NCBI RefSeq assembly: GCF_008329525.1
Contig: NZ_NPKQ01000002.1
Span: 186,001-250,000, forward strand
Length of the DNA: 64,000 nucleotides
Direction of reading: 5' to 3'
Source: Tardiphaga sp. P9-11
GTDB lineage: Bacteria; Pseudomonadota; Alphaproteobacteria; Rhizobiales; Xanthobacteraceae
Part shown: one piece after another, positions 18,729 through 19,581 of the stretch
How positions within the stretch are numbered: the first letter of the stretch is position 1
How the letters are laid out: each line of letters opens with the position of its first letter
Made by a program: the position numbers and the translations under genes
Notes under the pieces: generated by a model
The model's input: only the letters and a program-made list of their open reading frames with translations
Told to the model about the DNA's origin: nothing
Database searches by the model: none

Positions 18729-18783
18729 TGGTGCGGGCGGAGGGACTCGAACCCCCACAACTTTCGTCACTGGAACCTAAATC
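18729..18783 (-). pseudogene. 3' half of the interrupted tRNA-Leu (UAG)
   Basis: On the minus strand this is the 3' part of a leucine tRNA: from the anticodon loop (GATTTAGGT) through the anticodon stem strand TCCAG, a long variable arm, the T-arm (GGGGG-TTCGAGT-CCCTC), acceptor strand CGCCCGC and the encoded CCA. The matching 5' half lies at 19543-19581. Joined through the shared 9 bases they give a normal 85-nt tRNA-Leu with perfectly paired acceptor and anticodon stems. The gene is broken by 768 bp. Confidence 0.92.
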
Positions 18784-18855
18784 TCGTGGCGCAAAACCGT
18801 GAGACGCCTAAGCTCCCGTAATCGCTGAGCTTATTTAGATCGGCGATACCTGCAC

Positions 18856-18912
18856 TGTCACCATCAGGTGCAAAATGTCACCCATTTCACACCTGATTTG
18901 TCACCCGGTGAC
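18856..18912. repeat. Left cluster of TGTCACC motifs (three copies)
   Basis: TGTCACC occurs at 18856-18862, 18876-18882 and 18899-18905; the last is part of a palindrome GTCACC-C-GGTGAC (18900-18912). The same motif occurs twice near the right end of the insertion. Repeats of this kind, close to a recombination core, are typical of integrase arm-type binding sites. Confidence 0.6.
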
Positions 18913-18926
18913 GCCAATACGACGAA

Positions 18927-18953
18927 CAGTGGATTATGTCGAGACATCCACTG
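18927..18953. repeat. Near-palindrome inside the insertion
   Basis: CAGTGG and ATGTC pair with GACAT and CCACTG around a GA centre, giving an 11-bp stem with a 3-base bulge. It ends 26 bases before the internal tRNA-Leu. It may be an operator, a recombination-factor site or a transcript hairpin. Confidence 0.55.
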
Positions 18954-18979
18954 CTCAATTGTGTATCGGAATGCCGCGT

Positions 18980-19064
18980 GCCCGGCTGGCGGAATTGGTA
19001 GACGCAACGGTTTTAGGTACCGTCGCTGAAAGGTGTGGGGGTTCGAGTCCCTCGCCGGGCACCA
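18980..19064 (+). tRNA. Complete tRNA-Leu (anticodon TAG) inside the insertion
   Basis: A full 85-nt leucine tRNA: acceptor GCCCGGC with GCCGGGC, leucine-type D-arm, anticodon stem ACGGT/ACCGT around TTTAGGT (anticodon TAG), a long variable arm, T-arm with TTCGAGT and an encoded CCA. It has the same anticodon as the host gene the insertion breaks but runs on the opposite strand and has a different acceptor and anticodon stem. It is therefore not a simple duplicate of the host tRNA; it probably replaces its function. Confidence 0.96.
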
Positions 19065-19094
19065 TGAATAGTCAGTGCATTTCAGGCAGCACGA

Positions 19095-19364
19095 CTATCC
19101 AACGACCCTAGATTTGAGTCGATCGGACATAGCGGCGAACCGCCGATTGACCGGAGCGTCGATAAAGTCCTTGGGCTCAAGCCTGCGACCGATCCGGACC
19201 TCGAAACATCCTACGCAGAGTTTACCGTCGCCCGTGGGATTTGCGCTCAACCAAAGATCATCATGAACCATGTAATACTCATCGGGCGTTATGAACGTAA
19301 CCTCTGTTCGGCAGTCCATGCACTTACCGTCACGCCCGTGCCAGTCGTCCAAGACCGATGTCAT
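19095..19364 (-). CDS. Small zinc-ribbon-like protein in the insertion
   Basis: An 89-residue protein with two CxxC pairs (KCMDC at about residues 15-18 and LCVGC near 50-53) separated by ITPDEYYMVHDDLW, followed by EVRIGRRLEPKDFIDAPVNRR. This resembles small proteins of unknown function that recur in phage and actinobacterial/alphaproteobacterial accessory DNA, from general familiarity and not from a search. It is the only protein gene inside the 768-bp insertion. No clear Shine-Dalgarno is visible. It may be cargo or a DNA-binding accessory protein. Confidence 0.75.
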   Translation of the reverse strand: MTSVLDDWHGRDGKCMDCRTEVTFITPDEYYMVHDDLWLSANPTGDGKLCVGCFEVRIGRRLEPKDFIDAPVNRRFAAMSDRLKSRVVG

Positions 19365-19389
19365 CGTGTTATCGAGTCCGCGCTTGTTC

Positions 19390-19412
19390 TTTTGTCACCG
19401 AGTTTTGTCACC
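19390..19412. repeat. Right pair of TTTTGTCACC motifs
   Basis: Two direct copies of TTTTGTCACC with a 3-base spacer, the TGTCACC cores being at 19393-19399 and 19406-19412. They match the motif in the left cluster and lie about 130 bases from the right core, as integrase arm sites would. Confidence 0.65.
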
Positions 19413-19515
19413 TCTGGCGACTATCCAGAGAAGCTCCTGCCACTCGTAGTGGATCACTAATCTACTGATGTGGTTCCTAGCTCTCGGCTATTTCGCTTCG
19501 GGGGCGTTCTCATCT

Positions 19516-19536
19516 GCCAAATGTGGAGAATTTGGC
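19516..19536. repeat. Inverted repeat beside the right core
   Basis: A perfect 7-bp inverted repeat GCCAAAT / ATTTGGC with a 7-base loop ends six bases before the right core ACCTAAATC. It may be part of the recombination site or a hairpin protecting the truncated tRNA transcript. Confidence 0.55.
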
Positions 19537-19542
19537 ATTAAC

Positions 19543-19581
19543 ACCTAAATCCAGCGCGTCTACCAATTCCGCCACGCCCGC
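19543..19581 (-). pseudogene. 5' half of the interrupted tRNA-Leu (UAG)
   Basis: On the minus strand this is the 5' end of the leucine tRNA: acceptor strand GCGGGCG, D-arm with GAATTGGTAGA, anticodon stem strand CTGGA and the loop up to GATTTAGGT. It pairs perfectly with the 3' half at 18729-18783. The host promoter should lie above 19582 and now drives only this fragment. Confidence 0.92.

Follow-up and report, generated by a model that had tools for sequence, protein, structure and literature searches.

The window, that is, the whole 64-kb stretch of DNA that was analysed, carries a host tRNA-Leu(UAG) gene on the minus strand next to tig (this and the other gene names in the window are our readings of ORFs). 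The gene is interrupted in its anticodon loop by an insert. Its two halves have the 9-bp core GATTTAGGT in common and lie 759 bp apart, or 768 bp when one core copy is counted with the insert, and when joined they form an 85-nt tRNA-Leu(UAG). A second, internal tRNA-Leu(UAG) gene lies within the insert in the orientation opposite to that of the split gene (Table 1). The original prediction had described a split tRNA with nine shared bases and an 85-nt join, and its coordinates and base counts were correct.

Table 1 Features of the interrupted tRNA-Leu(UAG) locus (positions in the window).
Feature	Position	Strand	Remarks
Host tRNA-Leu(UAG), 5' half	19543..19581	-	Equals positions 1-39 of the intact gene in G001, G004, G009 and G016
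Host tRNA-Leu(UAG), 3' half, CCA included	18729..18783	-	Matches positions 31-85 at 100%
Left copy of the 9-bp core GATTTAGGT	19543..19551	-	Repeat comparison
Right copy of the 9-bp core GATTTAGGT	18775..18783	-	Repeat comparison
Putative mini-element, 768 bp with one core copy (left arm, cargo ORF, reversed tRNA, right arm)	18784..19551	-	No integrase ORF
Left arm	19389..19542	-	GGTGACA at +139 (19406-19412) and +152 (19393-19399) from the core
Right arm	18784..18979	-	GGTGACA at -122, -99 and -79; 7-mers start at 18899, 18876 and 18856
Cargo ORF, 89 aa	19095..19364	-	CxxC motifs by eye; matches phrog_6053 (unknown function)
Intact replacement tRNA-Leu(UAG)	18980..19064	+	ARAGORN and Rfam

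The original prediction had proposed that relatives be compared for an empty site, and four close relatives (G001, G004, G009, and G016) have an intact gene at the same locus. It is identical to the joined halves at 85/85 positions, and the flanks of the locus are 90.5–94.1% identical in these genomes. Because the joined sequence occurs in full at the same locus in all four, the split arrangement is not due to chance. We also looked for it as a possible ancestral state in the genus and did not find it as such: the UAG gene is intact in 15 of the 18 genomes surveyed and split only in the window genome. The search did not find the UAG gene in the remaining two (G008 and G015), whose assemblies are 94% and 85% complete. 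Two UAG genes each were found in G012 and G014, so that some members of the genus have more than one, although these two assemblies have 4% and 6% contamination.

The 89-aa cargo ORF is the single ORF of at least 80 aa that lies wholly within the insert, and it has no Pfam match; no integrase was found in the insert. Att-like ends are retained on both sides, with no integration or transfer genes inside. The cargo protein also had no match in PADLOC or NCBIfam. Among 20 of the 134 phage records in phrog_6053, the function is hypothetical or unannotated in all but two, and the paired labels of these two are likewise hypothetical. Just two relatives of the protein, both partial matches, were found in genome contigs, and its AlphaFold model was poor, with a mean pLDDT of 62.

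The host genome (6.16 Mb in 30 contigs, listed as 100% complete) has 46 tRNA genes as scored by Rfam. ARAGORN assigned the anticodons CAA, TAA, CAG, GAG, and TAG to its five tRNA-Leu genes, the last of these being the internal gene, which is the sole tRNA-Leu(UAG) found among the 46. At the tig locus, only the internal gene was recognised as a tRNA, and the host tRNA is reconstructed at neither junction. The internal tRNA equals the broken host gene at 66/85 positions and the tRNA of IMGVR_UViG_2858590830_000002 at 79/85, the latter being the closest of 14 compared, an identical second copy (see below) aside. Under standard wobble rules, the CUA codon requires a UAG anticodon, and CUA makes up 12 of the 457 Leu codons in 12 ORFs taken as genes. 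No sigma-70-like promoter was found for the internal tRNA by a promoter scan, which says little because 0.7 were expected in shuffled sequences.

That the target gene is broken and that the insert brings a substitute, as originally predicted, is thus upheld by the sole UAG gene found together with the empty intact sites in close relatives. The proposed count of tRNA-Leu(UAG) genes, made here with Rfam and ARAGORN, gave one, the internal gene, and a second intact host tRNA-Leu(UAG), which would have made it dispensable, was looked for genome-wide and not found. The principle that an insertion supplies the function it destroys would hold for this arrangement but is not new, since it has been published for other elements (PMC10865867, PMC6811365). 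The suggestion of addiction needs to be narrowed: the internal gene is indeed the only UAG gene found, but recombination of GATTTAGGT with GATTTAGGT would restore the old gene exactly, so harm would be expected only from tRNA loss without precise excision.

We searched 391 family genomes for the intact gene and picked by eye 19 with weak best scores. These 19 leave out other weak scorers (including G099, G150, G165, G179, G192, G316, G328, G330, and G334), and two further genomes outside the 19, G267 and G272, gave no match; ARAGORN was run on seven loci. Three of the 19 (G279, G225, and G246) have a 3' half together with a reversed tRNA-Leu(UAG). In G279, a genome of one contig, the tRNA-Leu(UAG) halves are 44 kb apart (C1:1613053-1657332) around a prophage with genes for an integrase, RNA polymerase, DNA polymerase, primase/helicase, head, connector, internal virion proteins, and terminase, a gene set that we label T7-like. 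The integrase separates the 3' half from a complete reversed tRNA-Leu(UAG) approximately 1.2 kb away. In G225 and G246, the reversed tRNA-Leu(UAG) adjoins the 3' half and immediately follows a host gene for a protein with Carb_kinase and YjeF_N domains, and the 5' half was not found; the same kind of gene forms the 5' flank in G279. In these two genomes, both from another genus, an apparently foreign tRNA-Leu(UAG), possibly from a mobile element, seems to have been captured permanently, with the 3' half of the old gene kept. By eye, the G279 core is flanked by the inverted repeat CAGAGGCG/CGCCTCTG.

IMG/VR was searched with a pattern made from the internal tRNA, and two contigs matched. One of them, IMGVR_UViG_3300046665_000193, contains a second copy of the insert with the same layout and a length of 1,285 bp. 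Its tRNA is identical to the internal tRNA of the window (85/85), 294 bp of tRNA and right arm are 99% identical, the left arm is 70% identical, and the interior is different: its cargo ORF encodes 222 aa and matches Trypsin_2 slightly below the Pfam cut-off and, weakly, PDC-S45 in PADLOC (1.5e-7). The second copy is preceded on its left by the right end of a phage, which encodes a Pfam integrase and a tRNA-Leu(UAG), and followed on its right by the left end of a phage, which encodes a Pfam RNA polymerase and has a 228-aa ORF that looks ligase-like by eye. Another such phage-end junction is found about 43 kb further left on the same contig. A relative of the trypsin-like cargo, 40% identical, lies in IMGVR_UViG_2922379399_000003 (7125-7736) beside a related integrase and behind a G run.

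A further IMG/VR contig, IMGVR_UViG_3300046691_000054, has the same phage region with an empty attP that lacks the element. The empty and occupied contigs are equal at 2998/3009 bases on the left and 2989/3000 on the right (99.6%), and the 1,285-bp element is located exactly at the GATTTAGGT of the phage attP. Empty and occupied sites for the same kind of element are thus seen both in bacterial tRNA-Leu(UAG) and in phage attP. Only the second copy stands in tandem beside phage ends with the same att site, where T7-like phage ends and mini-element form a tandem array; the window copy stands alone. Instead of a virion genome, the occupied contig might represent prophages arrayed in tandem in a chromosome.

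The element's arms resemble those of the T7-like phages at the phage loci compared. The commonest heptamer is GGTGACA in both copies and in the 387-bp phage att region. The 777-bp element of the window has five instances of it, where a first-order model expects 0.14, and the second copy has four (0.17 expected); these counts were reached in 0/1000 simulations for either copy. The whole 64-kb window has ten occurrences, five of them inside the element. Offsets were counted from the core start. In the left arm of the second copy, the heptamers lie at +138/+151, one base from those in the window (Table 1), and in six phage loci at +121/122 (4/6), +136/137 (6/6), +149 to +151 (6/6), and +212 (2/6). 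The right-arm positions at -122 and -99 are common to both copies, with -79 present additionally in the window copy, and the phage loci have theirs at -104/-106 (6/6), -134/-138 (4/6), and -146 to -150 (5/6). The left-arm offsets are therefore close to those of the phages, and the right-arm offsets are not. As a left-end control, only the known one of 26 IMG/VR stretches with GATTTAGGTGTTNNTGCC has GGTGACA at these offsets. Among eight related integrases in the family (32–45% identical to the query), the heptamer is present in the loci of four (G205, G104, G223, and G172) and absent beside the other four (G232, G230, G046, and G279). We infer that GGTGACA is an arm-type integrase site.

Two copies are known in all. 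The joined arms gave, the window genome aside, one weak 36-bp match among the 391 family genomes (G275, E 1e-3) and one 28-bp match among 327 order genomes partly overlapping the 391 (G480), which has an unrelated context and looks like chance. Three arm patterns matched only the known contig in IMG/VR. Twenty-five of the 26 matches to the shorter left-end pattern GATTTAGGTGTTNNTGCC were rejected as further copies, as their context makes them look like chance. No relative of the phage integrase was found in the host genome at E<=1e-20, and for this reason the window copy looks stranded now.

We consider it probable that phage integrases move the insert, which would then be an integrative mini-element, non-autonomous and about 0.8–1.3 kb long. 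Such an element would be composed of the core, two arms with integrase-site-like repeats, a tRNA-Leu(UAG) resembling those of phages, and a single exchangeable cargo gene. The tyrosine integrase of a T7-like phage, supplied by infection, would recombine it in trans, or in cis after the element has landed beside a prophage, and the partner of the core would be a phage attP, the tRNA-Leu(UAG) gene of a bacterium, or an att site next to a prophage. New cells would be reached by the element riding inside phage DNA. In the chromosome, the site in the anticodon loop would be tolerated since the element's own tRNA would take over decoding, that of CUA above all, and the reverse reaction would give back the host gene because the core is identical. 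Several observations count against this reading. Only two copies are available; their right-arm repeats are placed differently from those of the phages; GGTGACA is missing beside half of the related family integrases; and the tRNA is within the arm in the phage loci but outside the arm and reversed in the element. In addition, no relative of a helper integrase resides in the host genome at the threshold given above, and the phage contig might, as noted, be chromosomal.

More tentatively, and with rather less conviction than we attach to the mini-element itself, both copies may be members of a class of recombinase-less hitch-hikers of temperate phages, approximately 1 kb in size, which would ride at attP and settle in essential tRNA genes by means of their own tRNA. 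The cargo slot would be interchangeable and its content possibly anti-phage, as the weak match of the trypsin-like cargo to a candidate defence family suggests, and the elements would offer a route by which a foreign tRNA is swapped in. If this is true, phage integrases are exploited by parasites almost as tiny as the MITEs that exploit transposases, and a carried tRNA gene permits the occupancy of an otherwise lethal site. There would then be a simple, testable route for a foreign tRNA gene to replace an essential bacterial one, and phage attachment sites would contain a slot for cassettes that integrase-based element finders would overlook. Prophages and one conjugative-type element of this family would be added as well to the candidates for tRNA-dependent integration.

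An immobile scar was our first reading of the locus: a full tRNA-dependent prophage would have integrated, its body would have been deleted, and its tRNA would have been kept as essential. It is favoured by the full 44-kb T7-like prophage of G279, with its reversed tRNA-Leu(UAG) near the 3' half, by the apparently captured and decayed forms in G225 and G246, and by the absence of a related integrase from the host genome at E<=1e-20. The reading was demoted when a phage attP proved to be occupied by an independent copy that shares both ends and the tRNA but has a different cargo, and we now regard it as unlikely. A private local deletion is disfavoured because the same left end is found elsewhere, in that second copy. 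A single ancient deletion followed by later mobility merges with the mini-element explanation.

The other alternatives fare worse than the mini-element and the scar. Insertion of a classical transposon that duplicated 9 bp of its target would account for the direct repeats at both ends, but we think it highly improbable: both targets, the tRNA loop and the phage attP, have the same GATTTAGGT, no terminal inverted repeat was seen in the insert by eye, and the insert has no transposase-sized ORF, its sole ORF being without a Pfam match. We give still less credence to an assembly artefact or a contaminant joined into the contig. The genome is a draft in 30 contigs, but the site lies inside a 1.34-Mb contig with flanks conserved on both sides, the ends are base-exact at the core, and without the insert the scans would find no tRNA-Leu(UAG) gene in the genome. 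An RNA intron that carries another gene and is spliced out from between the halves would fit the anticodon loop, where tRNA-Leu group I introns reside, as in the relative G011 (C1:1972394-1972688; anticodon UAA by eye; Rfam 50.9 bits), but it has a negligible chance of being correct and was rejected, since Rfam shows no group I core between the halves and no intron family in the insert (gathering threshold and E up to 5) in a search that does find the G011 intron, and since the insert is bounded by att-like arms, carries a tRNA itself, and has a counterpart in phage DNA.

Related arrangements were seen at other loci. In G205, G104, and G046, related integrases lie beside a complete tRNA-Leu(UAA) and an apparent 3' half of another, and in G223 and G172 they lie beside a tRNA-Cys(GCA); these five loci are further candidates for tRNA-dependent integration. 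In G012, contig C22 has VirB8, CagX, and TrbI genes at its start and carries the 5' half of a tRNA-Leu(CAA) along with a different, complete one, and a tRNA-Leu(CAA) 3' half lies beside a tyrosine integrase on C12 (151500-162936). A conjugative-type element, spread over these two unlinked contigs, seems to interrupt the anticodon loop of tRNA-Leu(CAA) in this genome. In G008 (C1:44308-44589), a tRNA-Leu(CAA) 5' half is followed by a complete, different tRNA-Leu(CAA), and the 3' half was not found. A tRNA-Leu(CAG) is partially duplicated in tandem in G006 (C590). The host genome itself has a degenerate tRNA-Leu 5' fragment before a small ORF (G000:C2:126448-126479), perhaps an old integration scar. 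At the tig locus, six genus members have a tRNA-Leu(UAG) with another anticodon stem. The first 46 nt of the G017 tRNA at that locus equal the phage tRNA of IMGVR_UViG_3300046665_000193 and the rest is host-like, and this tRNA may be a recombination product that has ceased to match the phage core.

The principle of tRNA substitution is already known, and the new part here is an insert without an integrase and with defined ends. Among the literature matches listed, which covered few subscription journals, we found no account of integrase-less mini-elements that carry a substitute tRNA and are moved by phage integrases. The closest known system is tRNA-dependent lysogeny, described by Guerrero-Bustamante and Hatfull in 2024, in which integration breaks a host tRNA gene and a substitute tRNA is provided (PMC10865867). 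As there, the insertion at our locus uses a short core within a tRNA gene of the host (9 bp here, 8 to 17 bp for the tRNA-dependent cases noted), the host tRNA is not reconstructed, and the element's tRNA is of the same kind. The broken host tRNA is likewise non-redundant, with one UAG gene found among 46. That system differs in that a whole actinobacteriophage with its integrase is inserted, compared with 768 bp without an integrase here. According to its discussion, one older case lies outside the actinobacteriophages (Lj965), and the prevalence elsewhere needs study (PMC10865867).

Two phage systems use the same tRNA. The SAR11 T7-like phages integrate in tRNA-Leu(TAG) with the trigger factor gene adjoining, and a phage tRNA-Leu replaces that of the host (PMC6811365); there, however, a complete 39-kb prophage with an integrase is present, and the portion of the report available notes no mini-element. 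The S. meliloti prophage in tRNA-Leu(UAG) that brings its own tRNA-Leu(UAG) shows the same substitution, which was proposed in that work to diversify bacterial tRNA genes, but is an intact prophage and not a mini-element (PMC11476347).

Among non-autonomous elements, the insert resembles cis-mobilizable elements (CIME; PMC5704250, PMC3146451) in lacking an integrase, in having att sites at both ends, and in its tandem accretion with an autonomous element, which here is seen for the second copy only. CIME have been described for the decay of ICE or IME and for genomic islands, whereas our element apparently uses a phage integrase, is <1.3 kb, and carries a substitute tRNA. Helper-embedded PICI satellites likewise occur within helper phage DNA and have a doubled arm-type motif on both sides of attP, but they encode an integrase themselves, carry a larger set of genes, and are inserted among the late genes of the phage instead of at attP (PMC10111431). 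The features of PICI- or P4-type satellites (their own integrase and regulation, replication or packaging genes) are absent from the element, which has a single small ORF. As with hitchers of the MITE and CALIN types, a short element would be moved by the recombinase of a helper; MITEs use transposases and CALINs the integron integrase, whereas our element would use the tyrosine integrase of a phage (PMC11389934).
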